DNA of 64,000 nt from Roseococcus suduntuyensis (GTDB taxonomy: Bacteria > Pseudomonadota > Alphaproteobacteria > Acetobacterales > Acetobacteraceae), in contig NZ_JACIDJ010000007.1 in assembly GCF_014196305.1 (NCBI RefSeq), positions 63,829 to 127,828 of the forward strand, written 5' to 3'. Shown piece after piece: positions 2,566 to 40,860 of this stretch. A program made the translations under genes and the position numbers. The notes beneath the pieces are model-generated. The model worked only from the letters and a program-made list of their open reading frames with translations, was not told the origin of the DNA and searched no databases. Positions within the stretch are counted from its first letter, which is position 1. The number at the start of each line of letters is the position of its first letter.

Positions 2566-4902
2566 ATGCCCTTCGACCTGCACGACGCCGCGCAAGGCCA
2601 TGACGCCGCCCTCGACCGGGCGCTCTCCGCCATCCCGCCCGCCTGGCCGCTGGCGGCCACCGTGGCGGTGAACCCCTTCCTCGGCCAGGTGGGCGAGGAT
2701 TTCGCCACCGCCGCGGCACGCCTCGCCCGGGTGGGCGGCATCGCCACCACCATGCCGCGCGAATGGTTCGCCGCGCGCATCGCCTCCGGCGCCATCGCGG
2801 AGGAGGACCTGGCCGCCGCGCTGGAGGCCGCGCCCGCCGCCCACCGGCCCGAGAGCCTGGCGGCCCTGCGCGCCGCCCTCGCCCGCCCGCGCCCCGCCCC
2901 CCGCGCCCTGCCCACGGTCGCGGAGCTTGTGGCCGAGATCACCGGCACCGACTGGCCCGGCATCATCGCCGACCGGCTGGGTGGTTTCGCCGCCAGCTGG
3001 TTCGATGCCGGGCAGGCGCTGTGGCCGGTGCAGCACCGGGGCGCGCTCTATGCCTCCTGGCGGGCCACGGCGCTGCGCGACCTGACGCCCGAGATCCTCG
3101 GCCTGCCCGGCTTCTGCGCCCATGTCGCCGCCACGCCCGCCGGCGCCGCCGCCGCCACCGGGCGCGCGCTGGCCGCCCTGGGCGTGCCCATGGCCGCGCG
3201 CGAAACCCTGCTTCACCGGCTGCTGATGACGCTGGGGGGTTGGGCGCAGCTCGCCCGGCAGCGCGGCTTCGAGGCGGAGCTGGAAGGCCGCACCGACCCC
3301 ACGCTCGGGGAACTGCTCGCCGCGCGGCTGGTGTGGGAGGAGGCGCTCTTCGCCGCCCATGCCGAAGCCTTGGCCCCGCGCTGGGCCGAGGTGCTGGACG
3401 CCCACGCCGCCCCCGTCGCCGCCGGCCCGGAGGAGGCGCTGGACGCCATCCTGCAGGACGCCGCCGATCGCGCCGGGCAACGCGCCCTGGCGGCGAAGCT
3501 GGCCGGCGCCGCCGCCGCGCCGGTGGAAACGCGCCCCGTGCTGCAAGCCGCCTTCTGCATTGACGTGCGCTCGGAGGTGATGCGGCGCGCGCTGGAATCC
3601 CTCGACCCCGGCATCCGCACCCAGGGTTTCGCGGGCTTCTTCGGCCTGCCCGTGGCGCATCAGGCCTTTGCATCGGACGTGGTGGAGAACCGCCTGCCCG
3701 TGCTGCTGCGGCCCAGCCTGCGAAGCTGCACGGCGGTGGAAGGCGAGGTGCCGGCGCGGATCGGCGCGCGGGCCAAGCGGGCCTGGGGGCGGTTCAGCCA
3801 GGCGGCCGTCTCCTCCTTCGCCTTTGTGGAAGCGGCGGGGCTGCTGCATGCGGGCGGGCTGCTGCGCGACGCGCTGGGCCTGAAGCGCGCCGCCAAGGCC
3901 GAACCCCCGCCCCGACTGCCCGAAGCCCTGACGCCCGAGGCGCGCATCGCCACCGCCGAGGCCGTGCTGCGCGCCATGTCCATGACGGAGGGCTTCGCGC
4001 CGCTCGTGCTGCTGCTGGGACATGGCGCCACGGTCGCCAACAACCCGCATGCCAGCGCGCTCCATTGCGGCGCCTGCGGCGGGCATCGCGGCGATGTCAG
4101 CGCGCGGCTGCTGGCCCTGCTGCTGAACGACAAGGCGGTGCGGGCAGGCCTCGACGCGCGCGGCATCGCGGTGCCGGAGGACACGCTCTTCCTGGCCGGG
4201 CTGCACGACACCACGGGTGACCGCGTCACCCTCTACGCCGCCGACCACCCGCCCCACCCCGCAACAGCCCAGGCCGAGGCGTGGCTCGCCCGCGCCGGCG
4301 CCCTGGCGCGGGCCGAACGCGCCCTGCGCCTGCCCCGCGCGGCCGGTGGCGAGGCCATCCCTGCCCGCGCCACCGACTGGGCCGAGACGCGCCCCGAATG
4401 GGGGCTGGCCGGCTGCCAGGCCTTCATCGCCGCACCACGCGCCCTGACGGCGGGCCGCGACCTCGGCGGCCGCGTCTTCCTGCACGACTATGACTGGCGG
4501 CGGGATGCGGGCTTCGGCGTGCTGGAACTCATCCTCACGGCGCCCGTCGTGGTCGCGAGCTGGATCAGCCTGCAATACCACGGCTCGGTCGTCGCACCGG
4601 AGGCCTTCGGCGGCGGCAACAAGCTGCTGCACAACGTCACCGGCGGCGTGGGCGTGGTGGAGGGCAATGGCGGCACCCTGCGCGTGGGCCTGCCCTGGCA
4701 GTCCGTGCATGACGGCGAATCGCTGGCGCATGAACCGCTGCGCCTCAGCGTCCATATCGCCGCCCCGCGCGAGGAGATCGGCGTCATCCTGGACCGCCAC
4801 CCGGGCGTGCGGGCGCTGTTCACGAATGGCTGGCTGCACCTCCTCGCCCTGGACGAAGCGGGGCGCTCCTGGCGCCTCGGCGCCGATGGAAGCTGGAGCT
4901 GA
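2566..4902 (+). CDS. dabA: DabA (DUF2309), vectorial carbonic-anhydrase-like subunit
   Basis: A 778-residue soluble protein of the DUF2309/UPF0753 family. The beta-carbonic-anhydrase-like zinc site is complete: C331 and D333 (in CIDVR), H486 (LLGHG) and C501 (HCGACGG). The H-to-C spacing of 15 residues equals that of Halothiobacillus DabA (H524/C539, from memory). DabA with DabB hydrates CO2 to bicarbonate in an energy-coupled, one-way manner. The ribosome-binding sequence TGAGGA overlaps the dabB stop, indicating translational coupling. No RubisCO or carboxysome gene is in the window, so the bicarbonate could serve either autotrophy or anaplerotic carboxylases. Confidence 0.93.
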
Positions 4903-6360: not shown

Positions 6361-6371
6361 CACCCTTGTTG

Positions 6372-6422
6372 AGAGCGGGATTCAGCGTTCTCGGTGATTC
6401 CACCTCAACGCATCCCGCTCTA
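6372..6422. repeat. Nested palindrome at the xylA stop codon
   Basis: Outer arms AGAGCGGGAT / ATCCCGCTCT, middle arms GCGTT / AACGC and an inner GGTG-ATTC-CACC hairpin give a three-level stem. Read on the minus strand, the unit begins TAGAGCGGG, and that TAG is the xylA stop. AGAGC...GCTCT palindromes of this style are common between alphaproteobacterial genes (general knowledge). Confidence 0.65.
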
Positions 6423-19839: not shown

Positions 19840-21474
19840 GGCCTCCAGCCCCAACCGTCGCATCCGGTTGTAGAGCGTCTTCCGCGCGATCCCGAGGAAG
19901 GCCGCCGTCTCGCCACGGCGGAAGCGGTGGCGGCGCAGCGCGTCCATGATCCAGGCGCGTTCGTCCAGCGTCTCGGGGCCGGCGGGGGGTGCCGCGGGGC
20001 CCAGCGCCGCCTCCAGCGCCGCGACGGTCACGCGCCCGCCCGGCGTCTCGGTCAGCGTCCGCAGCAGCACTTCGCGCAATTCGCGCAGATTGCCCGGCCA
20101 GGACCGCGCCATCAGCAGGCGCAGCGCGGCAGGCTCCACCGCGCTGGCGGCGCGGCCCGCCTCGCGCAGCATGGCGCGGGTGATGAGTGGGATGTCCTCC
20201 AGCCGGTCACGCAGCGGCGGCACCACCAGGCGCTGCGCCGACAGCGCCCGCGCCAGCCCCTGCGCGCCGGGCGGATGCACCAGCACCAGGCGCGCGCGCG
20301 GCAGGCGTTCCTCCGGCTTGCCGAAGCGGGCGAAGGCCCCGCGCTCGATCCAGTCCGACAGGCGGGCGCGCAGCACGGGCGGCAGGGCGTCCGCCTGCTC
20401 GATCACGACGGTCAGCCCCTGGCGGCCCAGCAAGCCGCGCGGCGGGTCGGCCGAGAGGGCGGCCGCAATGTCCTCCCGCGCGTCCAGGAAAAGCGGCCCG
20501 CCCGCGCGCCCCGCCCCCGCATGCAGCGCCCGCGCGACGGTGGAGCGGCCCGAGCCAGGCTCCCCCTCCACCACCACGGGCAACTCGGTCGCGACCAGGC
20601 GGGCCACGCGCTGGGCCAGCGTGCGTGCCGCCGCCGAACGCCCCACCATGCCGCGCGGCAGGGCGGGCGAGGCCGCCTCGGCCGGGCGCAGCAACGCCGC
20701 GGTCTTGAAGGCCGAGGTGCTCTGCATCACCGAGAGTTCCAGCGGCAGGCGGTCGAGCGTGGAGCCGCCCACGTAGCCATCCGCGCGCGAGGCGTCGCAG
20801 ACCTGGAGCATGTGCTGCGCGTCCACGATGGGCCCGCCTTCCACCAGGCAGCGCAGGCCCGGCGCGCGGCGGCGAAGGGCCGCGAAGACGCGGCGCGCGC
20901 GCTCGGCCGCGTCCTCCAGCCGCACGCCACCGGGCACGCCCATGCTGCCGCCGGCGTTCCAGCCGAAGTTCAGCACCAGGCGCTCCACCCCCGCATCGGC
21001 CATGGCCTCGGCCTCGGCGCGGGTCTTGGCATAGGCGAGGGTGGCGAGGCCCTGGGCGCGGGCCTCGGCGAGCAGCGCCACCTCGCGCCCGAAGCCCAGG
21101 CCCGCTTCCTCCAACGCCGCGCGCAATGCGCCGTCGAGATGGATCGCCGTAGGGAAGTTGGCGATGCCGTGGTAGCCGGCCTCGCGGATGCCGGCCACGA
21201 AGCGGGGCAGGTCCAGCCGGGGGTCGCAGGCGGCGGCGCCGAAGAAGACGGGGATGCGGACCCGGTCCAGGATTTCGCGCCGGGCGAAGCTGTCGGTGAA
21301 GGGGTTGCTGTCGGCGATGGGCAGCATGGCGGCCAGCGAGGGCGCGCCCATGACGCGCAGCCGGCCGGCGTTCAGCACCAGCAGGAAATCCGCCCCGCCA
21401 TCGGCGGCGGCCCGGGCCGTCATGCCGAGGCCGATAGCCGCCCCCACCAGGATGTCCCGCTTCAAGCCGCGCAT
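19837..21474 (-). CDS. Regulator: PEP-hydrolase-like TIM barrel + AAA+ + Fis HTH
   Basis: 545 residues from ATG 21474. Residues about 1-260 are a PEP-hydrolase-family barrel (ILVGAAIGLGMTARAAADGG, VFFGAAACDPRLDLPRF, YHGIANFPTAIHLDG), used here as a probable sensor. About 275-480 resemble a sigma-54 activator AAA+ domain, but Walker A is GEPGSGRS with Arg for Lys, and the GAFTGA loop is absent. The C terminus (about 505-545) is a Fis-type HTH (GETAAFLGIARKTLYNRMRR). Without GAFTGA it probably does not activate sigma-54 promoters; TyrR-like sigma-70 control is more likely. The neighbouring liv/xyl operon, which encodes a paralogue of the sensor barrel, is the obvious target. Confidence 0.83.
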   Translation of the reverse strand: MRGLKRDILVGAAIGLGMTARAAADGGADFLLVLNAGRLRVMGAPSLAAMLPIADSNPFTDSFARREILDRVRIPVFFGAAACDPRLDLPRFVAGIREAGYHGIANFPTAIHLDGALRAALEEAGLGFGREVALLAEARAQGLATLAYAKTRAEAEAMADAGVERLVLNFGWNAGGSMGVPGGVRLEDAAERARRVFAALRRRAPGLRCLVEGGPIVDAQHMLQVCDASRADGYVGGSTLDRLPLELSVMQSTSAFKTAALLRPAEAASPALPRGMVGRSAAARTLAQRVARLVATELPVVVEGEPGSGRSTVARALHAGAGRAGGPLFLDAREDIAAALSADPPRGLLGRQGLTVVIEQADALPPVLRARLSDWIERGAFARFGKPEERLPRARLVLVHPPGAQGLARALSAQRLVVPPLRDRLEDIPLITRAMLREAGRAASAVEPAALRLLMARSWPGNLRELREVLLRTLTETPGGRVTVAALEAALGPAAPPAGPETLDERAWIMDALRRHRFRRGETAAFLGIARKTLYNRMRRLGLEA

Positions 21475-21487
21475 GTTGGGGAAGGTA

Positions 21488-21506
21488 TGGTGGAGCTGAG
21501 GGGAAT
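21488..21506. repeat. attL core (tRNA-Ala 3'-end duplicate)
   Basis: TGGTGGAGCTGAGGGGAAT is identical to 31849-31867. It is the displaced original 3' end of the tRNA gene and lies 13 bp before the regulator start codon at 21474 (minus strand). Confidence 0.93.
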
Positions 21507-21914
21507 ACCCCAAACCTGCATCATCAACGCCTTAGCCTGGCAACCGGCGCCGAAACCGTCACGGGAAATCAATCGCTTACGGGCGAACTGGCTACCGTTT
21601 CTGGTGGTGAAGCAGTAGCACACGCACCACCCGCCGCGCCAGAGGCTTCGCCCATCGGCCGGTGGCAGATCGGCGACACGCTGCGCGAGAAGAAGCGGGC
21701 TGGCATCCACGACTACGAGCTGGCCGGCATCGCGCCCTATACCACGCGGGGCGGTAAGGCTTCGGCGCTGCTGACGTGGCGCGGGACGTGCGCCATCTGC
21801 GGCGCCGGCTTCACCTGCACCACGGGCCGCGCCCCGTCCGACCTCACGCGGACCTGCCCCACCCATCGCGGCAAGTATCGCCCCGGCCGGAAGGGAGGGC
21901 GGCGCAATGCCTGA
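21507..21914 (+). CDS. 3' part of a gene split by the att site (zinc-ribbon-like)
   Basis: An open frame of 136 codons that ends with TGA at 21912-21914 but has no in-frame ATG, GTG or TTG, either here or across attL into the chromosome. The C-terminal part looks like a genuine protein: a putative zinc ribbon CAICGAGFTC ... CPTH and a basic tail KYRPGRKGGRRNA. It overlaps the primase start by 8 bp (ATGCCTGA). Joined through the 19-bp core to the right end of the element, the frame continues back to GTG 31757 or TTG 31820, giving 172 or 151 residues. It is therefore probably expressed only from the circular form. Confidence 0.7.
   Translation, partial: TPNLHHQRLSLATGAETVTGNQSLTGELATVSGGEAVAHAPPAAPEASPIGRWQIGDTLREKKRAGIHDYELAGIAPYTTRGGKASALLTWRGTCAICGAGFTCTTGRAPSDLTRTCPTHRGKYRPGRKGGRRNA
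21587..21597 (+). other. Candidate integrase arm-type site, left
   Basis: ACTGGCTACCG is identical to 31773-31783 at the right end, where an inverted copy also occurs. In the circular form these would flank the core on both sides (82 bp from it on this side), as arm-type sites of lambda-like integrases do. Confidence 0.4.
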
Positions 21915-24132
21915 CGGGATCAACTTCACTCCCGAGGGGCTGACGCTGGCCACGCTGGCGCCCGTGCGGCGTTGGGTGGCCTGGCAGACCGAGGACCGGG
22001 ACGACAAGCCCACCAAGACGCCGAAGAACCCGGCCACGGGCGGCAATGCAAAATCGGATGATGCCGGAACGTGGTCCGAGAGGGATGCAGCCGAGAGCCG
22101 CGCCGCGTGCCTTCCGAAGCCCTATGGCGAGGGCGGTGTCGGCCTGATGTTGGGCATCCATGATGACCTGGCTATCGGCGGCCTCGACCTCGACACATGC
22201 CGGGACCGGGACAGCGGCCAGCTTGCGGCCTGGACGACGCCATTCATCGAGGCGCTGAACACCTACAGCGAGGTATCGCCCAGCGGGATGGGCCTCAAGC
22301 TGTTCTTCCGATACGACCCGGAAGCCCTGCCCGAGCTGCGCGAGATTATGGGCACCAAGACCGGCAAGCAGTGGAAGCCGGTAGGAGAGAAGAACCACCC
22401 GCCCGGCGTTGAGCTGTATCTGTGCGGCCGGTTCTTCGCGGTGACAGATCGCGCGGTTAACGCGGCGCCCATCAACCACGTGCCGGTGTCCGTCCTGCGA
22501 TGGATCATCACTGAGGCGGGGCCGGCGACCTTCCGCGCGCCAGAGGCAAAGCCTGACTTCGGCTTCGCCTTTGACGATGGCGGCAGCGGCGGCGACCAGT
22601 CGCGCAGCGGGAAGGCGATGCGCGTTGCGGCCCGCATCAAGGGCGCTGGCGGCACTTACGAGCAGTTCGTCGAAGCCCTGGACAAGAAGCCGGAAACCGC
22701 CGCGTGGAAGGCCGAGAAGGGCCTCCCGAACGGCGGGCGGGAGATGCGCCGCACCTGGGACAACTGCCGCGCCAAGCCCCGCGATGCGGACGGCGCCGGC
22801 GACGGCGGCGATGACATGGAGCTGACGGAGGACGGCGTTGCGCTGGCCTTTACCGAGAAGTTCCACGACGCCCTGCGCTACTGCCACGACACGGGCGCCT
22901 GGTATGTGTGGGAAGGCAGCCATTGGCGGCAGAACCGGGACAAGATCGCCTTTTCATGGGCGCGGCAACTGGTGCGGAAGCTGAACCGATCGGCCGAGTT
23001 CAAGACGAAGGCAATCACCGGCAAGGCATCGTTTGCGGCATCGGTGGAGCGGTTCGCCCAGGCTGACAGGGCCTTCGCGGTGACAACCGAAAAATGGGAT
23101 CGGGCGCGCGACCTACTCGGAACGCCTGGCGGCACTGTGGACCTTCGCACCGGCATCATGCGGCCCGCCGCGCGCGAGGATCACATCACCAAGACCACGG
23201 CCATTGCACCGGCCGAGACGGCAGATTGCCCCACCTGGCGGGCCTTCCTCGACCAAGCCACGGCGAACGACGCGGGCCTGATCCGGTTCCTTCAACAGTG
23301 GTGCGGCTACTGCCTGAGCGGCAGCACGCGCGAACACGCCCTGCTGTTCATCTACGGGCCGGGCGGTAACGGCAAGTCAGTGTTCTTGAACACGCTGGCC
23401 GGCATCCTGGCCGATTACGTGGCGTCGGCGGCAATGGACACCTTCACCAGTTCGCCTGGTGACAAACACCCCACAGACCTCGCCATGCTGCGCGGCGCGC
23501 GCCTGGTGACGGCCACGGAGACGGAGGAAGGGCGGGCATGGGCCGAGGCGCGCATCAAGCAGATGACGGGCGGCGACCCCGTTACAGCGCGCTTCATGCG
23601 GCAGGACTTTTTCACCTACACCCCGCAATTCAAGCTAACGATTGCCGGCAACCACAAGCCGGCACTGCGGAACGTGGATGAGGCGGCCCGGCGCCGGTTC
23701 AACATCGTGCCGTTCCTGCACAAGCCTGAGACGCCCGACCGGCACCTTGAACACAAGCTCAAGGCCGAATGGCCCGGCATCCTGCGATGGATGATCGAGG
23801 GTTGCCTCGACTGGCAGGAACACGGCCTGGTGCGCCCCGCTATCGTGGTGGACGCGACGGCCGAATACTTTGAGCAGCAGGACGCATTTAGCCTGTGGCT
23901 GAAAGAGTGCTGCATCATCGGCCCACCTGCCAGCGCCAAGCCCGGCGAGCTCCTGGCCAGCTTCACAGGCTGGTGCCAGCGCAACGGCGAGATGACGCCC
24001 AACCGCAACAAGATGCGCGGAATGTTGGAGCGGGTGCCGGGCCTGAAATACGTGACCAACGGCGGCACGCAGTGGGTGCGGAACATCAAGCTGTTGCCCA
24101 GCGGCCAGCAGGGAGGCGCGGACCATGAGTAG
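21907..24132 (+). CDS. Primase-polymerase / SF3 (D5-like) helicase replication protein
   Basis: 741 residues. The N-terminal part (about 15-200) looks like an archaeo-eukaryotic primase/polymerase of the NrS-1 type: WVAWQTEDRDDKPTKTPKNP, the acidic GGLDLDTC and SPSGMGLKLFF. The C-terminal part (about 430-690) is a P4/D5-type SF3 helicase with Walker A GPGGNGKS, followed by RLVTATETEEG, and an Arg/Asn sensor region FKLTIAGNHKP. Such fused proteins start replication of phage satellites and plasmids. It follows the split gene with an 8-bp overlap. Downstream lies a long inverted repeat that could be its origin. Confidence 0.88.
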   Translation: MPDGINFTPEGLTLATLAPVRRWVAWQTEDRDDKPTKTPKNPATGGNAKSDDAGTWSERDAAESRAACLPKPYGEGGVGLMLGIHDDLAIGGLDLDTCRDRDSGQLAAWTTPFIEALNTYSEVSPSGMGLKLFFRYDPEALPELREIMGTKTGKQWKPVGEKNHPPGVELYLCGRFFAVTDRAVNAAPINHVPVSVLRWIITEAGPATFRAPEAKPDFGFAFDDGGSGGDQSRSGKAMRVAARIKGAGGTYEQFVEALDKKPETAAWKAEKGLPNGGREMRRTWDNCRAKPRDADGAGDGGDDMELTEDGVALAFTEKFHDALRYCHDTGAWYVWEGSHWRQNRDKIAFSWARQLVRKLNRSAEFKTKAITGKASFAASVERFAQADRAFAVTTEKWDRARDLLGTPGGTVDLRTGIMRPAAREDHITKTTAIAPAETADCPTWRAFLDQATANDAGLIRFLQQWCGYCLSGSTREHALLFIYGPGGNGKSVFLNTLAGILADYVASAAMDTFTSSPGDKHPTDLAMLRGARLVTATETEEGRAWAEARIKQMTGGDPVTARFMRQDFFTYTPQFKLTIAGNHKPALRNVDEAARRRFNIVPFLHKPETPDRHLEHKLKAEWPGILRWMIEGCLDWQEHGLVRPAIVVDATAEYFEQQDAFSLWLKECCIIGPPASAKPGELLASFTGWCQRNGEMTPNRNKMRGMLERVPGLKYVTNGGTQWVRNIKLLPSGQQGGADHE

Positions 24133-24139
24133 GGGGTGG

Positions 24140-24239
24140 AGGGGTGGAGGCTGGTGGAGGCTGAAACCGTTAATCGCCCACGTGCGCGCGCGCGCGCATG
24201 GCAATGGAACGGGGAAGGTATCCACCAGCCTCCACCCCT
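24140..24239. repeat. 19-bp inverted repeat around an alternating GC tract (possible origin)
   Basis: AGGGGTGGAGGCTGGTGGA (24140-24158) and its exact complement TCCACCAGCCTCCACCCCT (24221-24239) flank 62 bp that contain a run of alternating C/G at 24185-24197. The left arm overlaps further GTGGAGG repeats beginning at 24134. The region 24133-24407 has no gene. Position directly after the primase fits a satellite replication origin; a transcription terminator is the alternative, but no T-tract follows. Confidence 0.5.
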
Positions 24240-24407
24240 GGGCACCCACCACCCGCCCGCACCCATGCATCTCGCGCATTCGTTACGGATCGGCCATGCG
24301 TCTAGGTTCTTCCTGGCGCCCTTCGACCTGCGGGTAGTTCGCGCCGCTCCATCGCGCCACGTTCCGGAAATTTCCCAAGTATCATCACCTCGAAAGGACA
24401 TTGACCG

Positions 24408-24830
24408 ATGCCCAAAGCCCCCGCCCCGGATTTGCCGGATACCTGCACGTCCAGTCAGCTTGCGAAGCTGCTGGGCCTGAGTGAGCGCGTCATTGCCGGC
24501 CGGCGCCTCGATGGCCGGTTGCCGGTGCATGACGGTGCGATTGACCTCCGGGCGCTATGCCGGGCCGGGCTGAACGCTGGCACGAAACGCCTGAGCTTGG
24601 AGAAGTTGAACCGAGAGGCTTTCAGCTTCGCGCACCACGTCGCGGGCAAGGCGGCTGCGGCGGCAGTCGCGCCCCGGCCTGGTGAGACGCCCGGCCAAGC
24701 TGCGGCGCGTGCGATGGACCGCGCCATGATGGACGACGATACGTTCATCTGGCCCGAGAGCTGGTCGGAGACGGATGAAATCAACTTCGCGGATTACGCC
24801 GATCTTCCGGAAGATGAGGCAGCCGCGTAG
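24408..24830 (+). CDS. Small HTH protein, possibly Nu1/TerS-like
   Basis: 140 residues. Residues about 12-55 (CTSSQLAKLLGLSERVIAGR ... DGAIDLRAL) read as a winged HTH of the Nu1/small-terminase or AlpA type, followed by an Ala-rich region and an acidic tail (WSETDEINFADYADLPEDE). AAAGGA lies 13-8 bp upstream of the ATG. If it is a small terminase, it could redirect a helper phage's packaging motor, as in other satellites; that is inference only. A plain DNA-binding regulator is the alternative. Confidence 0.5.
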   Translation: MPKAPAPDLPDTCTSSQLAKLLGLSERVIAGRRLDGRLPVHDGAIDLRALCRAGLNAGTKRLSLEKLNREAFSFAHHVAGKAAAAAVAPRPGETPGQAAARAMDRAMMDDDTFIWPESWSETDEINFADYADLPEDEAAA

Positions 24831-24868
24831 GCGCCGAACACATTGATGAGTGGCGGCGGCTGACACTG

Positions 24869-24897
24869 AAAGGGGGTGCCAACGTGGCACCCCCTTT
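24869..24897. terminator. Bidirectional hairpin terminator candidate
   Basis: AAAGGGGGTGCCA and TGGCACCCCCTTT form a 13-bp perfect stem with an ACG loop. A- and T-runs are at the stem base. It follows the small HTH gene by 39 bp. Confidence 0.75.
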
Positions 24898-25038
24898 GGG
24901 CGGGAAGCAGCCCCGCGCCCGTGGAACGTAAATCCGCTTGCGCCCTGGATTCCGCGCAGCGTAGGTTGAAGCGGCCGGACGAAGCGCGCCAACGCTTCAC
25001 CCGGCCTAACCGCAACGTGTTCGACAAGGAACAACGTC

Positions 25039-25476
25039 ATGGCTGATAGCCATCTTACCACCACGAATCCGTCTGATGTGAAGCGGCGCGCCGCCCTTGT
25101 GGCCGGTGCTGCGATGTTCGCCGCGCCGGCTGCGGCCAGCGCCGATCCTGACGCCCGGCTGCTGGCCCTGCTGATCGAGACGCGCGCGGCCCATGCGGCC
25201 ATTGTGCGGGCATACAATGAGGCCGAGGACATGCCCGCTGACGCGGTTCTGGCGCCGCTGTATGCCCGCCTCGATGCGGCGCGGGATGAGATGGCAGCTA
25301 CCCCGGCGCGCGGCGTGCTGGGCGCGCTGGCGAAGGCCGCGCGCATCGCGGACAACCTGAGCGACAACGGCAGCCATGGTGAGCCGGGCTATACACTCGA
25401 CTGTAACGACGCCCCGGTGGGCGCGAGCCTAGCGGCCGATCTGGCGCGGCTGCTGCCGGTGGGGGTGCAGGCATGA
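25039..25476 (+). CDS. Hypothetical element protein
   Basis: 145 residues, not recognised. The segment RRAALVAGAAMFAAPAAASA near the N terminus looks like a Tat/Sec signal peptide, but twin-Arg strings of this sort also occur in cytoplasmic phage proteins. The rest is Ala-rich and helical with an acidic patch (EAEDMPADA). AAGGA lies upstream of the ATG, and the gene overlaps the next by 4 bp (ATGA). Confidence 0.6.
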   Translation: MADSHLTTTNPSDVKRRAALVAGAAMFAAPAAASADPDARLLALLIETRAAHAAIVRAYNEAEDMPADAVLAPLYARLDAARDEMAATPARGVLGALAKAARIADNLSDNGSHGEPGYTLDCNDAPVGASLAADLARLLPVGVQA

Positions 25477-25733
25477 ACGCCGCCATCAACCTGCCCGCGT
25501 CGCGGGAGGCGCTGGCGCTGCTGAACAGCACGATTGATGGCGCGCTGCACGAACTGCGGAGCTTCGCGGGAGTGCTGGCGCATATCACCCACCATTCCGA
25601 ACAGGCGCCGCACGAGGACACCATGATGTTCCTCGCGCATCAAATTGACCTGCGGGCCGAGCGGGTGGCCGAAGCCGTCATGCAGGCGGTGGAGACGCTG
25701 CGCGAGGCGAAGCTGTCGGCGCCGGCCGAGTAG
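25473..25733 (+). CDS. Hypothetical element protein
   Basis: 86 residues, helical, not recognised. It is coupled to the previous gene by ATGA and is followed by a classic terminator at 25760. The pair forms a short transcription unit between two hairpins. Confidence 0.6.
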   Translation: MNAAINLPASREALALLNSTIDGALHELRSFAGVLAHITHHSEQAPHEDTMMFLAHQIDLRAERVAEAVMQAVETLREAKLSAPAE

Positions 25734-25759
25734 CCGCGCCCATCCCGGCCGAAATAGAG

Positions 25760-25784
25760 CGGGCGCCCCGGTGGCGCCCGTTTT
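25760..25784 (+). terminator. Rho-independent terminator
   Basis: CGGGCGCC-CCGGT-GGCGCCCG, an 8-bp GC stem followed at once by TTTT. It ends the 25039-25733 unit. Confidence 0.85.
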
Positions 25785-25789
25785 CATAT

Positions 25790-25833
25790 GTGTGGCCGAC
25801 ACACGGAAACTCTTGACCGTGTGACCTCCACAC
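25790..25833. promoter_or_regulatory. Two identical operator palindromes GTGTG-N5-CACAC
   Basis: GTGTG-N5-CACAC occurs at 25790-25804 and 25819-25833, centres 29 bp apart. The second lies between the -35 and -10 boxes of the promoter at 25813-25841 and the first just upstream, so a bound repressor would block it. The adjacent HTH gene is the likely binder. Confidence 0.7.
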
Positions 25834-25841
25834 GCTATGTT
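25813..25841 (+). promoter_or_regulatory. Sigma-70 promoter of the capsid-gene unit
   Basis: TTGACC (25813-25818), 17-bp spacer, TATGTT (25836-25841). It is the best consensus promoter in the element, and the start codon at 25848 is so close that the mRNA would be nearly leaderless. Confidence 0.7.
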
Positions 25842-25847
25842 CTCGGC

Positions 25848-26393
25848 ATGATTGGAAGCCTTCACCCCCCTCGCATCATCGCCCCCGCCATGGGCATCAC
25901 GGCCGATGTGCTGCGGCAGTGGATGACCGGCCATAGCTCTTTGGTTGCGCCGCTGGCGTTCATTGGCGAGACGGGCGCGAGCGGGCGCCGCCGCTACTCG
26001 TTGGGCGGCGCGGTGCTGGTGAAGATCGCGGCGCACCTCTCTGGCAGCGACGGCCGGGGGCACGGCTTCATGCGCCCCAACGAAGCCATTTTGATTGCGA
26101 ACGCCCTGGCGCCTTTCGTGCGGGAGCTTGAGGAAGGCTACAGCGAACACGGCGCGAATGCGCTGGTGCGGATGGGCGGGGCCGGGCCGGTTGCCGTTGT
26201 GATGGCGACCAACTGGCCAGACCGGTTCCGGGTGTCGGCGTTCCCCTCGCGCGTCGCCTATGTCGCGGCTGCTGAGCGCGGCGGCTTCGCCATGACGGCC
26301 CTTCACTTGGACATGCAGACGCTATTCAGCGCGGCGGCGGTGGACATTTCCAACGCTGCGGCGGCTGCCATCCATGGAGACCCCGCCGAATGA
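25848..26393 (+). CDS. HTH regulator of the structural-gene unit (putative)
   Basis: 181 residues from ATG 25848, placed just after the promoter; a longer frame to 25788 would include the promoter and is rejected. Residues about 12-60 (APAMGITADVLRQWMTGHS ... RRYSLGGAVLVKIAAHL) read as a MerR/winged-HTH-like DNA-binding region. The C-terminal half is Ala-rich and unassigned. Two palindromes sit over its own promoter, so autorepression is plausible. It is the first gene of a run that continues to the capsid gene, each with short overlaps or gaps. Confidence 0.6.
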   Translation: MIGSLHPPRIIAPAMGITADVLRQWMTGHSSLVAPLAFIGETGASGRRRYSLGGAVLVKIAAHLSGSDGRGHGFMRPNEAILIANALAPFVRELEEGYSEHGANALVRMGGAGPVAVVMATNWPDRFRVSAFPSRVAYVAAAERGGFAMTALHLDMQTLFSAAAVDISNAAAAAIHGDPAE

Positions 26394-26698
26394 CCGACCA
26401 CACCACCCTGCCGCCGCGTGGTGAAAGCGCGGTGTTCCCCTTGCCCCCGATGACGGCGACCGGTGGCCCGCCTGAGCTGTCGGGCCTGGTCCTGAGCGGT
26501 GACGGCCGGCTGACGGTGGCAGCGCATGGTGTGGGCCTCGCGGTGCGGCTTGAGGCAGAGGACGCGGCGCAACTGGCCCTGATGCTTTGGCAGTTGTCCG
26601 GACGCCTGGCAGCCGAGCGCACAGAGGCGGCCGAGCGTGCGGGCGATGCCTTGGACGCCATCACGGCAAGCTTTTCCGGAGGCGCCGGCCATGCGTGA
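26390..26698 (+). CDS. Hypothetical element protein
   Basis: 102 residues, not recognised. Overlaps the previous gene by ATGA and the next by 8 bp (ATGCGTGA). It has a beta-strand-rich middle (GLVLSGDGRLTVAAHGVGLAVRLEA) and a helical C terminus. The coupling shows it belongs to the structural-gene unit. Confidence 0.6.
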   Translation: MTDHTTLPPRGESAVFPLPPMTATGGPPELSGLVLSGDGRLTVAAHGVGLAVRLEAEDAAQLALMLWQLSGRLAAERTEAAERAGDALDAITASFSGGAGHA

Positions 26699-26912
26699 GC
26701 CCCGCAGCCTTCCCCCCGGCGTTGCCGAGTATCTCGCGGACTTCAACGCGATAACCCGTGGGCGCCCTTTGGCCGAGCTCGACCAGTTCGAGTTTTCAAA
26801 GCTGGCGGATCGCGTGCGGCAGGGCACAAGCGAGACGGGCCTCCCTGCCCCCCTGGCATTTCGCAAGGAGCAGATACGCCGAATTACCGGCGTTCTGCCC
26901 AAGCGTGCATGA
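26691..26912 (+). CDS. Hypothetical element protein
   Basis: 73 residues, not recognised; start ATG 26691 lies inside the end of the preceding gene. Its position just before the tape-measure-like gene is that of tail-assembly chaperones in tailed phages, but no sequence feature confirms this. Confidence 0.55.
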   Translation: MREPRSLPPGVAEYLADFNAITRGRPLAELDQFEFSKLADRVRQGTSETGLPAPLAFRKEQIRRITGVLPKRA

Positions 26913-26924
26913 CGGGGGCCGCGC

Positions 26925-28454
26925 ATGGCGATTACTGAGCAATTCACCGCGGTAATTTCCGCCCGCGACCTCACGGCGGGGCCGCTTCGGCAGATCGGGC
27001 TGCGCTTCGGGGCGCTGGCCCGGAATACCGGCCTGGTGCGGATCGGCGCAGCGGCTGCAAATGTCAGCCGGCAATTCGCTGGCCTAGGCGCCCGCGTGGC
27101 ATCGGTGGCGGCGCCCCTCGCGGCGGTGGGCGCGGTGGCCGGGAGTGCTGGCCTTCTACGCATGACTCAGAACACGGCGGCCCTAGCTGACCGCCTCAAC
27201 AATCTGAGCATCCGAACGGGTGTCACGGTCGCCACGCTGCAAAGCCTCTCTGACGTGGCGGGCCGGGCTGGCGTGAGCCAAGAGGCACTCGCGGCCAACC
27301 TGGGCCGGCTGAATGTCGGCATGGTCAATGCGGCCACGGGCGGCAATCGAGACTTGGCGGCAGCCTTTCAGCGAATGGGCATCGCGCTTCGTGGTCCGAC
27401 CGGCCAAATCAGGACGGCGGCCGAAGTGCTGCCCGAGCTGGCGGACGCCTTCGCGGCGAACGAAAACCCGGCCATGCGGCTGCGGATGGCAACCCTGCTG
27501 ATGGGCGAGGCGGGCGCCGCCATGATCCCCGTCTTTGAGGGAAGTAGCCGCGCCCTACGAGAAGGCGAGGCGCGCTTCCGCCGCTACGGCTTCACTATGT
27601 CGCGCGAGGTGACGGCGGCGAACGTCGCTGCGCACAACCAGTTTGAGGACTTGCGGGTAAGCCTGGCCGGCATGGCGCAAGCCATCGGTTCGCGCCTCGC
27701 GCCCACGCTGGGGAGGATTGCGGAGCGCATGGCCGGGTGGGTGGAAGCCAACCGCGACCTGATCGCGCTTCGGATTGGTGAGCATGTGCAGAACATCAGC
27801 GCCGCCATGGAACGGTTCTTTGAGGAACAGGGCGCACTCGACCGCATCAACGCCTTCATGACCCGCGTGGGCGAATTGGTGGAGAAGGTGGGGGGCCTCC
27901 GCAACGTCTTGGTAGGCTTCGGCGTGGTGGCATCCCTGCCATTCATCGCAGCCGTGGCGAACATCGGAATGGCCTTGGCCCCAGTGATACGGGCGGTGGG
28001 GCTGTTGGCTGGTGCGCTGGCGGCGGGTTCGCCCTTGGGGCTGGCGGTGTTGGCCATCGGCGTGACCCTAGGGGCGCTGGTGACGCATTGGGAAAGCGTC
28101 CTGCGAGCCATCAACCGCGTGAAGGATGCGCTTCTCACATTCCCCGAGATCGGCACGCCTGGCGCTGCGCCGGGGCCTGAGCAGGGCCGGCGCAATTTCG
28201 GCCAGCGGGGGCGCGCTGGCGGCTTCTACGGGCCTGACGCCCTGCCAGCCCCCGACGCTTCCGGCCTGCCGTCAGGGCTGCCCGGAGCGTCGCCCATGTC
28301 GGCACCCGCCGCACCCCAACGCGGGCAGGTTGATGTGAATGTCCGGCTTGAAAACGCGCCACCGGGAACACGGGTGGAGACGCGGGCGGCCGGTTCGCTG
28401 ATCCGGGGCGCACAGACTGATGTGGGCTACGGCCTGATGAGGTTCGCACAATGA
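26925..28454 (+). CDS. Tape-measure-like phage protein
   Basis: 509 residues, short for a tape measure protein. The N-terminal half is helical and Ala-rich with TQNTAALADRLNNLSIRTGVTVATLQSLSDVAGRAG, a pattern typical of phage tail tape measure/TP901-like proteins (cited as type, not as match). A hydrophobic stretch at about 325-385 (LVGFGVVASLPFIAAVANIG and after) could be membrane-inserting. A Pro/Gly-rich linker near 405-450 precedes a beta-rich tail. It overlaps the capsid gene by ATGA. A tape measure without other tail genes is odd in a satellite. Confidence 0.72.
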   Translation: MAITEQFTAVISARDLTAGPLRQIGLRFGALARNTGLVRIGAAAANVSRQFAGLGARVASVAAPLAAVGAVAGSAGLLRMTQNTAALADRLNNLSIRTGVTVATLQSLSDVAGRAGVSQEALAANLGRLNVGMVNAATGGNRDLAAAFQRMGIALRGPTGQIRTAAEVLPELADAFAANENPAMRLRMATLLMGEAGAAMIPVFEGSSRALREGEARFRRYGFTMSREVTAANVAAHNQFEDLRVSLAGMAQAIGSRLAPTLGRIAERMAGWVEANRDLIALRIGEHVQNISAAMERFFEEQGALDRINAFMTRVGELVEKVGGLRNVLVGFGVVASLPFIAAVANIGMALAPVIRAVGLLAGALAAGSPLGLAVLAIGVTLGALVTHWESVLRAINRVKDALLTFPEIGTPGAAPGPEQGRRNFGQRGRAGGFYGPDALPAPDASGLPSGLPGASPMSAPAAPQRGQVDVNVRLENAPPGTRVETRAAGSLIRGAQTDVGYGLMRFAQ

Positions 28455-30310
28455 GCGAGACAATCTTGATGATCCGGCGCGAGGCGCGCTTGAGTGGCGC
28501 CCCGTCCACCCTCAATGCCGAGCGCGGCACGGTGGAGGCGACCATCACGACCGGCGCCCGCGTGGCACGTTCCGCCCCGGCGCCTGATGGCAGCTACACG
28601 CGGTGGTGGGAGGAATTGGACATGGTTTCCATGCGCCTTTCCCCGCCCGATGGCGTGCCGCTGTTGCTGGATCACGAACAGACCTTTGACAGCCTAGTGG
28701 GTCGCGTCTCTGGCCTGCGACGTGAGGGGGGCGGGCTGGTTGCCACCCTCACTTTCGCCAACGGCCCGCGCCCCCGTGAAGCCATGCAGCGCGTAGCGGA
28801 CGGCGCGCTGACGGGTGTTTCAGTCGGCTACCACGTTGGCGTCTGGACGCAGCGCGGCGAGCAGGACGGGCGCCCCGTCTATGTCGGCAGTCAAATCGAG
28901 ATTGCCGAGGTGTCCCTGGTTCCCATCCCGGCCGATGCGGCGGCCCGTGTTCGATCCGCGCAACCCAACAAGGAAACCCCTATGCCTGACATGAACATGC
29001 CGGACGATCCGGCCGAGCTTGCCACCCGTGCCGAGCGCACCCGCGTCGCCACCATCCGCGACATTGGCGCGATTGCCCTGCGCCAGAACGTGCTACCGCC
29101 CGATACCCTCGGGGATCTGGAACGCGCAGCCATCACGGCCGGCGCCACCCCCGACGCCTTTCGGGCTGATCTGATGGAGCGGGTTCTCGCGCAGCCGCAG
29201 ACCCCGGCGCCCGCGCCGCGCCCCGTCAACTTCGGTGAGAGCTACGACGCCCCCCACGCCATCCGCAGCCGCATGGTTGATGCCCTGGCGGCGCGCGTCA
29301 CTGGCCGCGACCCCGGCGAGGCGGCCCGTCAGTATCGCGGCCTGAGCCTCGCGGGCATGGCATCGGAGCTGATGGCGGCCAGCGGTTCGCGCATGAGCCG
29401 GGCGGCTTCGCCCAACGAGATCATGACGCGGGCGATGACGACCAGCGATTTCCCCCTGCTGCTGCAAGGGACCATGTATCGCCTTCTGCAAGACCGCCTC
29501 GCGGCGGCGCCTGGTGCGGCCCGCATGATCTGCGCGGCGCGGACGGTGCGAGACTTCCGCCCCGGCCAGTTCGTGCAGGCGGCCGGCGCCCGTGACCTTC
29601 ACGAGCTGGGCGAAGGTGGCGAAATCCAGCACGCGCCCCCGGCCGAGCGTGGCGAAAGCTACCAGCTCCAGACCTGGGCGCGCATGATGTTCTTCACCCG
29701 GCAAGCCCTGGTGAATGATGACCTGGGCGCCTTTGAACAGACCATGCTTCTCGCCAACGCGGTGACGGCCACCGAGGCGCAAGAGTTCGCCAAGATGTTC
29801 GCCACCAACGGCGCCGGGTGGGGGCCTACCCTCACGGATGGCCAGCCGCTTTTCAGCGCCGCACATGGCAACGTGGGCACGGGCGCGTGCAGCACGGCGG
29901 GTATCAGCGCCGGCCGGATCGTGATGCGGGCACAGACCGATGCCAGCGGCAACCTGATCGCCCCTGAGCCTCGCATGATGCTGGTGTCCCCCACCAACGA
30001 GACGGCGGCCGAGCAAGCCTTGAACGCAATCGCGGTGGTGGCGACCGGCGAGAGTGACCGCCCCGTGTTCGCCTCGCGCCTCACTCACGCGGTTGAACCC
30101 CGTCTGAGCGGCGCCCCCTGGTTCCTGTTCGCTGATCCGGCCATGGCGCCGGTTCTGGCCTTCGTGACCGGCGAGAATACGGGCGGCGTGCCGCAGATCA
30201 CGGAACACGTCCCGGCCAACCGAGACGGCATCTCCTTCAAGCTGGTGCATGACTTCACCATCGCGCCCATGAGCTTCGTTGGTGCGGTGCGGATGACCGG
30301 CGCCGGCTGA
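28451..30310 (+). CDS. Prohead protease / major capsid protein fusion
   Basis: 619 residues. The N-terminal part (about 1-175) is an HK97-type prohead protease: LLLDHEQ with the catalytic His, and GALTGVSVGY with the nucleophile Ser, followed by IAEVSLVPIPAD. After a linker (about 176-260) comes a major capsid protein with SDFPLLLQGTMYRLLQ, LPEGGEIQH-like 'ELGEGGEIQHAP' and a C-terminal IAPMSFVGAVRMTG. Fusions of this type occur in several phages and would self-process. It shows that the element can make its own coat protein, unlike classic PICIs that borrow it. Confidence 0.88.
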   Translation: MSETILMIRREARLSGAPSTLNAERGTVEATITTGARVARSAPAPDGSYTRWWEELDMVSMRLSPPDGVPLLLDHEQTFDSLVGRVSGLRREGGGLVATLTFANGPRPREAMQRVADGALTGVSVGYHVGVWTQRGEQDGRPVYVGSQIEIAEVSLVPIPADAAARVRSAQPNKETPMPDMNMPDDPAELATRAERTRVATIRDIGAIALRQNVLPPDTLGDLERAAITAGATPDAFRADLMERVLAQPQTPAPAPRPVNFGESYDAPHAIRSRMVDALAARVTGRDPGEAARQYRGLSLAGMASELMAASGSRMSRAASPNEIMTRAMTTSDFPLLLQGTMYRLLQDRLAAAPGAARMICAARTVRDFRPGQFVQAAGARDLHELGEGGEIQHAPPAERGESYQLQTWARMMFFTRQALVNDDLGAFEQTMLLANAVTATEAQEFAKMFATNGAGWGPTLTDGQPLFSAAHGNVGTGACSTAGISAGRIVMRAQTDASGNLIAPEPRMMLVSPTNETAAEQALNAIAVVATGESDRPVFASRLTHAVEPRLSGAPWFLFADPAMAPVLAFVTGENTGGVPQITEHVPANRDGISFKLVHDFTIAPMSFVGAVRMTGAG

Positions 30311-30317
30311 TGGTGAC

Positions 30318-30339
30318 GCGGGGGCTGACGCGCCCCCGC
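30318..30339 (+). terminator. Hairpin after the capsid gene
   Basis: GCGGGGGC (30318-30325) pairs with GCCCCCGC (30332-30339), loop TGACGC, then TTGCCCCTTCT. The T-tract is weak. Between this and the next gene (30340-30492) nothing else is recognised. Confidence 0.65.
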
Positions 30340-30492
30340 TTGCCCCTTCTCGCGGGGGGGCAGGCAAAGCCTTGCGAGGGCAGCGTTGCGGCAACTGCGG
30401 GAGTGTCGCTTTCCAAACCCCGCAGAGCCGGCGGCCTTTCTCCAGGGCGCGGCCGGCACCCTTTCACCCCCCGATGAGGGAGACTTGACCGA

Positions 30493-30726
30493 GTGAAGCC
30501 CCCGCCCCCTGCCATTCCGTTCTGGCCGCGCGTGCTGCGCCGGGAACAGGCTGCGGCGTATGTGGGCATGTCGCCTGCCCTGTTCGTGCGCGAGGTGGAG
30601 ACGGGCGCCCTGCCCCGGCCTATCGCGCTGGCCGGCACGGTCAAAGGGTGGGTGCGCGACGATCTAGACGCCTGGATTGATGACCGGCGCGCGGCGCAGT
30701 CTGTGGAGGTGAACACATGGGATTGA
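30493..30726 (+). CDS. AlpA-like excisionase/HTH protein
   Basis: 77 residues from GTG 30493. LRREQAAAYVGMSPALFVREVETGALPRPI and VRDDLDAWIDDRR give the short winged HTH of the AlpA/excisionase group. It overlaps the integrase by 10 bp. In P4-like elements AlpA controls integrase expression, and related Xis proteins direct excision; either role fits the position. Confidence 0.8.
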   Translation: MKPPPPAIPFWPRVLRREQAAAYVGMSPALFVREVETGALPRPIALAGTVKGWVRDDLDAWIDDRRAAQSVEVNTWD

Positions 30727-31756
30727 ACGCCATGGCCCGCCTTCGCCTCGATCACGTCCACACCTTCACCAAGGGCGGGCGCGTCTATCACTACTTCCGG
30801 CGCGGAAGGCAGCGTGTGCGCCTTCCTGGGCAGCCTGGAAGCCGGGAGTTCATGGACGCCTACCACGCGGCGCAGGCTGGCACGGAGGCGCCTGTAGGGG
30901 CCGCGCAGACGGTTCCGGGCAGCATGGCGGCGGCGGCGGCAGACTGGTATCGCGCGCCGGCCTTCACGGGCCTCAAGCCCACCTCGCAACGCACCTATCG
31001 GCGCCTCATGGAATTGTTCTTGAAGGACCACGGCGCGCGCCTGGTGGCCCATGCCGAGCCGCGCCACCTGCTGCGCGAGCTTGAGGGCATGTCGTCCACG
31101 CCGGCACAAGCCAACGCCTTGCGGAACGTGCTGCGGTCCCTGTTCCAATTCGCCTTTGAGCGCGGGATGCGGCGGGACAACCCCATGCGGGACGTGCGGC
31201 GCCTCAAGTATGAAAAGGCGCCTTATCGCCCATGGGAGGAAAGCCACATCGCGCAGTATCGGGCGCGGCACCCATCCGGCACGCGGGCACGGCTGGCGCT
31301 TGAGCTGCTGTTGAACACTGGCCAGCGGCGCGGCGACGTTATCCGTATGGGGCCGCAGCACATCCGCGACGGGCGCTTGAGCGTGAAGCAGGAAAAGACC
31401 GGGGCCGAGCTGCGGTTGCCCATTCATCGTGACCTTGCGGCCGAGCTGGCGACGGGGGCCGGGCAACTGGTGTTCCTGACGACGCAGGCGGGGGCCGCGT
31501 TCAAGAGCGGCACGGGCTTCTACAACTGGTTCAAGAGCCGGTGCGCCGAGGCTGGATTGCCTGCCGATCTTTCGCCCCATGGGCTGCGGAAGGCTATCGC
31601 GCGGCGGCTGGCCAAGGCGGGATGCACGCCCCATCAAATCATGTCCATCACTGGCCATAAGACACTGGCCGAGGTGGAACGATACACGCTTGACGCTGAT
31701 CAAGAGCGGCTTGCGGAGAGTGCCATCGTCCGGTTGCGACGGACGGGGAAGAAGAA

Positions 31757-31760
<4 letters not shown>
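30717..31760 (+). CDS. int: Tyrosine recombinase (integrase)
   Basis: 347 residues. The core-binding region spans about 60-150, the catalytic domain about 170-345. Catalytic-type residues: Arg in LLNTGQRRGDVIRM, HGLRK (His/Arg), GHKTLAEVERYT (His and nucleophile Tyr). The N terminus (KGGRVYHYFRRGRQRVRLPG) resembles an arm-binding domain. An in-frame ATG at 30732 is an alternative start. It lies next to attR and the tRNA gene, as expected for tRNA-site integrases. Its stop overlaps the GTG start of the split gene (GTGA, 31757-31760). Confidence 0.93.
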
Positions 31761-31924
<164 letters not shown>

Positions 31925-32059
31925 ACACGCGGCGCCGGCTTGGGGACCGGCACGGCGGAGCGTTTCGCGCAGGCGGGCGTCAGTGTCAAGCTGCCCTTCC
32001 CCCTTGCGAGCGCGCCCCGCATCCGCGACAACCGCCCAAAGCCAGGAGCCGCCCAGCGC

Positions 32060-40667: not shown

Positions 40668-40860
40668 GATTCACGCCCCGGCGTGCCGCCGGGACGATCG
40701 GGCGCGGCTCGGGCGGCCGATTCACGCCCCGGCGTGCCGCCGGGACGATCGGACGCGGCTCGGGCGGCCGCTTCACGCCCCGGCGTGCCGCCGGGACGAT
40801 CGGACGCGGCTCGGGCGGCCGATTCACGCCCCGGCGTGCCGCCGGGACGATCGGACGCTA
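40668..40860. repeat. Stem-loop repeat family A, four tandem copies
   Basis: Four copies with a 51-bp period (starts 40668, 40719, 40770, 40821). The outer flanks are those of the family, but the inner stem is CCCGGCG/CGCCGGG, unrelated in sequence to the TTTGG or TTCGG stems elsewhere, so the hairpin is conserved and the stem sequence is not. Copies are nearly identical, which implies recent amplification. On the minus strand the last copy supplies the TAG of the GST gene. Copy number may vary among strains. Confidence 0.9.

Follow-up and report, generated by a model that had tools for sequence, protein, structure and literature searches.

The window, a 64,000-nucleotide stretch of the Roseococcus suduntuyensis genome (contig NZ_JACIDJ010000007.1), carries an element of 10,380 bases (10.38 kb) between two 19-bp att repeats at a tRNA-Ala. 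The left repeat (TGGTGGAGCTGAGGGGAAT) lies at 21488..21506, and the same 19 bp recur at 31849..31867 as the 3' end of the tRNA-Ala gene (31849-31924, reverse strand), tRNA being the only Rfam match at gathering scores. The element has a G+C content of 67.5% and codes for a D5-type primase/helicase (21907..24132, forward strand) and a tyrosine integrase (30717..31760, forward strand), both assigned by family matches, and for several small proteins. One of these (24408-24830) gives a weak small-terminase match (phrog_57, E 0.003) and may carry a helix-turn-helix (HTH) as well. A 77-aa AlpA-like HTH protein (30493..30726, forward strand) scores 17.7 bits against PF05930, below the cut-off of 21, and matches PHROG DNA-binding families with E-values down to 2e-8. 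A tblastn search of 21301-32000, using two queries each for TerL and portal, identified neither protein, a result that a very distant portal could escape. The element nonetheless has the look of a phage satellite, and its gene content suggests that it would be mobilised by a helper.

The structural genes form a single forward-strand unit. Its first gene, at 25848..26393, encodes a 181-aa protein that the family profile described below assigns as a MerR-like winged-helix protein; an alternative in-frame ATG (25788), located within the operators, was judged the less likely start. The following genes encode a 102-aa protein (26390..26698, with an ATGA overlap with the 25848 gene), a small protein that is a possible tail assembly chaperone (26691..26912; PF23812, E 0.061, below the cut-off; start chosen by inspection in an open reading frame listed from 26637), a 509-aa tape-measure protein (26925..28454; TIGR01760, 31.2 bits with a cut-off of 28.8) and a 619-aa fusion of prohead protease and major capsid protein (28451..30310; PF25209, E 6e-39; PF04586, E 1e-10), the gene for which has an ATGA overlap with the tape-measure gene. 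The initial annotation, which placed tape-measure and capsid genes in this unit, was therefore correct on this point. Against viral contigs the capsid protein alone gave no matches and the tape-measure query two short ones.

In front of the 25848 gene lie two copies of the palindrome GTGTG-N5-CACAC, which we designate candidate operators O1 (25790..25804, GTGTGGCCGACACAC) and O2 (25819..25833, GTGTGACCTCCACAC). A consensus scan places a sigma70-like promoter on the forward strand, with a -35 box TTGACC at 25813..25818 and a -10 box TATGTT at 25836..25841. O1 is on the upstream side of the -35 box, its end 8 bases away, and O2 fills the 17-bp spacer of TTGACC-N17-TATGTT, so that the palindromes bracket the -35 box with one filling the spacer, as had been reported. 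They had also been called identical, which holds for the arms; the central five bases differ (GCCGA vs ACCTC). The centre-to-centre distance is 29 bp, and if +1 is the A of the ATG at 25848 the centres fall at about -51 (O1) and -22 (O2). The promoter is the sole sigma70-like site in 21400-31900, and because shuffles of this interval average 0.7 such sites (sd 0.9) against the 1 found, the match alone is not significant. Only 6 nt separate the -10 box from the ATG and no Shine-Dalgarno sequence is visible, so the 25848 mRNA is probably leaderless. Further upstream, a G+C-rich hairpin at 25760..25780 is followed by TTTT on the forward strand (the scanner scored the reverse strand only) and is perhaps the end of an upstream transcript.

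The paired sites are confined to this position. GTGTGN5CACAC matches the 64-kb window exactly twice, at O1 and O2, and 100 dinucleotide shuffles of the window contain no match; the whole 4,138,894-base genome contains the same two sites and no others, the reversed pattern, a control, matching once. That O1 and O2 are found nowhere else in 4.14 Mb points to a dedicated local regulator and not to a host regulon. Identical 5+5 dyad pairs within 60 bp number 28 in the whole window, and 25 of these are accounted for by three regions (near 19.76, 40.7 and 48.96 kb) in each of which a longer stretch is repeated at intervals of 51-54 bases; within the element the GTGTG pair is the only one. At 40670-40840 the stretch recurs every 51 bases and the reverse strand reads as a repeated proline/arginine-rich peptide.

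Taken alone, the 25848 product is matched by no Pfam, PHROG or NCBIfam model and by no phage record, and peptide patterns detected no relatives of it in viral contigs. Among 147 related genomes the protein recovered its own copy only. A search of 395 genomes of the order returned one good further match (in genome G411, E 8.8e-9), a frame with stops at E 5.2e-4 and weaker matches, while a two-sequence profile run against 385 genomes of the class gave the genome itself and one match (E 7.9e-4) lying inside an 838-aa open frame. The closest relative found is about 31% identical.

A wider family was collected from in front of capsid genes. A capsid-alignment scan of the genome collection contributed 80 of 149 loci and a three-member capsid alignment the best 80 of 568 matches in viral contigs; 819 candidate frames upstream of capsid genes were taken from 175 loci (505 in 96 and 314 in 79). 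The growing family profile matched 39 of the 819 at E up to 0.05, values that are flattered because the members trained the profile. Fifteen were dropped, two as near-duplicates (L223, L201) and 13 as far upstream, small-terminase-like or seemingly in the wrong frame (L073, L227|2182, L208, L064, L136, L205|354, L263, L134, L133, L150, L195, L138 and L260), which left 24 relatives, or 25 members with the window. Three weak members (L130, L240, L065) were retained, start codons of several members were shifted inwards by judgement, and L072 (genome G308) was recognised on inspection of the gene that precedes its capsid gene. BLAST at 1e-3 connects many of the members, not all. A weak profile match in L108 was rejected as an apparently chance frame.

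It is the family that reveals what kind of protein this is. A profile of 19 of the 25 members, termed A4 (L065, L067, L068, L072, L098 and L240 left out), matches among PDB sequences 3whp, a probable transcriptional regulator (7.8e-9), CarH (7.9e-9), Alr3614/CvkR (2e-7), GlnR (3.1e-7) and MerR (3.7e-5), and also yields the unrelated-looking chain 8vd6 (4.4e-6). PF13411 (MerR_1) is found in 11 of the 19 A4 members at E up to 0.5, with at least one member (L126) scoring above the gathering score (28.8 against 21.6). At the level of sequence the 25848 gene family is thus akin to the MerR superfamily, a kinship seen through the family and not through the window protein alone. Structure prediction is consistent with this. 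The AlphaFold model built on the A4 alignment is fair for residues 1-110 (block pLDDT 62-84) and poor beyond 110, a single-sequence model of the 25848 product reaches a pLDDT of 35, and the C-terminal half is without a confident model. Foldseek returned nothing for the model at E <= 0.001, the best match being CvkR (E 0.044, prob 0.98). Among realigned structures the 21 best are MerR-type regulators or RacA at Z 7.6-9.3, the highest of which is only slightly above 7-8, the typical value of the tool for models with no clear match. Family profile and modelled fold together make it likely that the product is a MerR-like DNA-binding protein of the winged-helix type, which gives more definite shape to the putative HTH protein that the initial annotation had placed first in the unit.

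The family genes occupy a consistent place. In 12 of the 25 loci the 25848-type gene precedes a portal gene, at 0 to about 410 bases, and the portal gene precedes the capsid gene; TerL lies further upstream in 11 of these 12. The other 12 relatives gave no match to the two portal queries, and in ten of them the gene is less than 150 bases from the capsid frame or overlaps it, the distances in L152 and L119 being 401 and 737 bases. The window resembles this second kind, with three extra genes in between including the tape measure. As these positions at capsid or portal-capsid units indicate, the gene is a marker of where the capsid module begins. For L166, a tape measure is supported by a pairwise E of 7e-4 only, with no family match.

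Conservation of the palindromes in relatives was examined by several statistics, applied in the order non-contiguous dyads, contiguous arms and pairs. The first, a count of non-contiguous spacer dyads, gave no difference from controls (P 0.31). Contiguous spacer dyads with arms of at least 5 are present in 9 of the 25 against 16.5% of 2293 controls (P 0.015; 0.033 without the window) and against 11.9% of 194 good-promoter controls (P 0.0016; 0.005 without the window); with arms of at least 6 the comparison is not significant (3/25 vs 4.6% of 2293, P 0.11), and single dyads, counted over the whole upstream region, show no significant excess (Fisher P 0.084; 0.19 without the window). Strict pairs precede 7 of the 25 family genes and 30 of 753 intergenic controls (Fisher P 8e-5; 6/24 and P 5e-4 without the window), in a test devised once several pairs were already known from inspection, this change of statistic after the data being a weakness. 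For a looser pair score the counts were 2/25 vs 3/753 at 10 of 10 (P 0.009; 0.12 without the window), 5/25 vs 27/753 at 9 or more (P 0.0025; 0.013) and 9/25 vs 134/753 at 8 or more (P 0.026; 0.054). Against shuffles the pair score gave Fisher P 1e-5 (7e-5 without the window), and it stood at P 0.0016 with the window and the three weak members left out and at 0.009 when L068 was also removed.

The sequences of the pairs differ from one element to the next, with conservation only between the loci L177 and L221 discussed below. L072 has GTAG-N4-CTAC twice, 45 bp apart, L166 AGGTACCT twice, 28 bp apart, L205 GGGA-N3-TCCC twice, 36 bp apart, L209 CTCA-N2-TGAG twice, 36 bp apart, and the weak member L130 GCGC-N7-GCGC twice, 13 bp apart. 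In L072, L166, L205, L209 and the plasmid L098 the motif has only two occurrences in the entire locus (10.7-18 kb), both of them at this place, the motifs having been chosen after sight and that of L205 taken as the wider GTGGG-N5-7-CCCAC. As 18 of the 25 members have no strict pair upstream, the pairs are a real but partial feature. The outcome for conservation is mixed: no protein closer than about 31% identity to the 25848 product was found and the palindromes of the window are not conserved as sequences, but other pairs at the same place are enriched. The recurrence of the paired layout in part of the relatives fits the autoregulation suggested by the initial annotation, while the majority without a strict pair counts against it.

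Several further arrangements were seen in the same loci. Paired palindromes in L071, from the exact scan, lie in a repeat field between primase-like and small-terminase genes, may be replication-origin repeats or a terminator, and were not counted; nor were those of L069, found in the gap between a repressor-type gene and its neighbour, both leftward. Pairs made up of G and C only in L064, L067, L069 and L071 (exact scan) were passed over. By eye, L166 shows at 6361-6418, after the AGGTACCT sites and before the probable start codon, a hairpin with six T behind it, which resembles a leader terminator or attenuator of the regulator gene, and L209 shows at 3364-3409 a -35 box TTGACT between perfect 16-base inverted arms (CTCACATGAGTCTCGC / GCGAGACTCATGTGAG), each of which contains one CTCA-N2-TGAG site. 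L072 (7200-7325) and L071 (7220-7470, reverse strand coordinates) have fields of short GTGTGACGCG- or GTGACAAG-like repeats, which end in long inverted repeats after replication-type genes and are possible origins of replication of these elements.

The enrichment of pairs bears on whether O1 and O2 have a regulatory role at all. RNA hairpins, terminator remnants or chance would also produce such sequences: inverted repeats are common in an element so rich in G+C, another hairpin lies close by at 25760-25780, and most relatives are without such pairs. We nevertheless consider this explanation very unlikely, as both O1 and O2 are located upstream of the expected transcription start, the 100 shuffles contained no site, Rfam at gathering scores recognises only tRNA, and pairs are enriched before genes of the 25848 family.

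The good match in G411 is a 10,690-base plasmid, RHOAph of Rhodovastum atsumiense (L098; NZ_OW485609.1, 1-10690), whose homologue of the 25848 product is 31% identical (E 8.8e-9; 5e-11 in a separate comparison). The homologue gene is directly before the capsid fusion gene, with a 4-base overlap, and is itself preceded by a promoter, TTGATC-N17-TATGTA. CGCTA-N7-TAGCG occurs there twice, 15 bp apart, and the first copy fills the spacer, its first base being the last base of the -35 box. Besides this protease-capsid fusion, RHOAph encodes ParA, a toxin-antitoxin pair and a DUF3987 protein that reads as primase-like. It looks like a capsid-bearing satellite-plasmid comparable to the Vibrio cf-PISP.

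A second comparison concerns the regulator and its putative site. The regulators of L177 (an Acidobacteria bacterium) and L221 (a viral contig) are 30% identical overall, yet one helix of the HTH is nearly the same in both (TGLPRGTVEGYLRRGIVKL vs TQLGRGTVEGYIKRGIVQL) and would be the recognition helix. Their promoters have in common ACTTGACAGACCAkCGGGCAATG; in L177 the spacer is filled by the palindrome GACCAT-N6-ATGGTC, and L221 has a less perfect copy in the spacer and a similar second copy 26 bp downstream. No other single observation hints as strongly that the protein may read the spacer site, but only one pair of sequences is involved.

The palindromes could instead be operators of another protein, be it the AlpA-like 30493 product, a regulator of the helper phage or a regulator of the host. 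The element does code for this AlpA-like protein, albeit below the Pfam cut-off, the 24408 product may contribute a further HTH, and AlpA is described as the activator of a Gram-negative PICI in PMC6092414. We regard this alternative as unlikely: the genome contains no further copy of the site, so there is no host regulon, RHOAph has no AlpA match and yet has the palindrome pair before its MerR-like gene, and L177 and L221 retain operator and helix together.

In our view O1 and O2 are, on balance, probably operators of the 25848 product, acting as a MerR-like autorepressor that shuts off the capsid/tape-measure operon. According to this model two dimers of the product would bind, one just upstream of the -35 box and the other in the 17-bp spacer, presumably in a co-operative manner, and would silence the promoter of the operon made up of the 25848, 26390, 26691, tape-measure and capsid genes. 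As the regulator gene is inside the operon that is repressed, this would amount to autorepression. The operon would stay off until repression is relieved, and the variable C-terminal half is where a partner that induces the operon would most likely act. A helper phage is a plausible source of induction; that one of its proteins acts on this C-terminal half is a guess. The further suggestion of the initial annotation, that the switch serves immunity, found no support.

A site within the spacer is also the classical MerR position, and the product could instead be an activator that re-shapes the promoter, the operon remaining silent until activated. Classical MerR activators use an atypically long -35/-10 spacer of 19-20 bp, a feature that is absent here, the window spacer of 17 bp not being atypically long, and in 13 of the first 18 members a 17-bp spacer came out best, by a score that itself favours 17. 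The passages on CvkR in PMC9938897 cut both ways: its motif is mainly within a 21-nt spacer at cas12k, and classical MerR regulators are said to work at atypically long spacers. Because the window spacer is already of optimal length, repression would be expected and not activation by untwisting of the DNA, and a second site is present upstream of the -35 box. We judge activation of the classical type to be decidedly improbable, and return to autorepression by the 25848 product.

A broader proposal is put forward more tentatively, and we hold it to be doubtful in its full extent: the 25848-type proteins may constitute an undescribed class of MerR-like autorepressors that serve as dedicated capsid-module switches in the capsid-bearing satellites of Alphaproteobacteria and of certain other bacteria. 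Each would head a portal-capsid or capsid unit, many would act on a rapidly diverging operator pair of their own, and the variable C-terminal half would read a helper-phage protein. How the capsid genes of such satellites are timed relative to the helper phage is little known. If the proposal is true, there is a separate MerR-like capsid switch whose operators can be read from sequence, and promoter, sites and regulator together offer a direct handle for finding the inducing helper protein. A 25848-type gene also flags satellites that yield neither a terminase nor a portal.

The closest precedent for the proposed arrangement is GlnR on glnRA of Bacillus subtilis, and it is by analogy with this layout that the 25848 product is read as an autorepressor. 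In the account of that promoter given in PMC6191146, one GlnR site is just upstream of the -35 box and one overlaps it, binding is co-operative, and both sites are needed for full repression of an optimally arranged promoter; GlnR is described in PMC9249791 as a MerR-like winged-helix repressor whose C-terminal tail senses a protein partner. The two systems share a regulator gene that is first in its own operon, two inverted-repeat sites and an optimally spaced promoter, and the window, with O1 upstream of the -35 box and O2 directly after it, matches a GlnR-type layout. They differ in the operator (TGTNAN7TNACA for GlnR, GTGTGN5CACAC in the window), in the second site, which overlaps the -35 box in glnRA and starts right after it in the window, and in that the partner of GlnR is glutamine synthetase and GlnR is not part of a phage element.

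Other members of the superfamily are instructive in different ways. A palindrome in or next to the core promoter is a MerR-superfamily feature that the window has, binding there being a prediction. CarH, a light-dependent regulator, is among the two best winged-helix matches of the A4 profile; its C-terminal part binds cobalamin, and the PDB titles of its structures name adenosylcobalamin, whereas the window protein is not confidently modelled in its C-terminal half. CvkR, described in PMC9938897 as a MerR-type repressor of type V-K CRISPR-transposons, is an example of MerR-type repressors serving mobile elements, and like the window system it combines a regulator of this type in a mobile element with a palindromic motif in or beside the core promoter. 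It is also the sole one of the top 20 realigned structures to cover nearly the whole 25848 model (141 residues, Z 8.2, rmsd 4.4). However, CvkR controls cas12k and tnsB and not a capsid operon, its motif is AnnACATnATGTnnT, and identity is 7-9%.

The element in the window resembles the capsid-forming PICIs (cf-PICI) and satellite-plasmids (cf-PISP) as these are presented in PMC13230959 and PMC11389934, being small and att-flanked with an integrase and its own capsid gene. Several relatives have, like cf-PICI, terminase, portal and integrase as well, and RHOAph shows that a plasmid form, as in the satellite-plasmids or cf-PISP, exists among the relatives. The cf-PICI-type element listed in PMC13230959 has its own terminase and portal; in the window element tblastn gave no match to TerL or portal, and a tape measure is present. 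The master switches described for satellites in PMC6092414 are Stl-type repressors and AlpA activators, with a figure legend giving the Gram-negative PICI regulator as 'alpA or merR' and AlpA being the one shown to activate. PMC13230959 describes the cf-PISP regulator as Stl-like, unlike that of the window, and mentions a MerR-like regulator in one episomal satellite and a Stl-like one in another. No account of a capsid unit under a MerR-like switch with paired operators was found in the literature covered, which included only a minority of subscription journals and is thus weak evidence of absence. Judged from sequence, the 25848 product is likely an autorepressor that belongs to a known superfamily, in a setting that has been little described.
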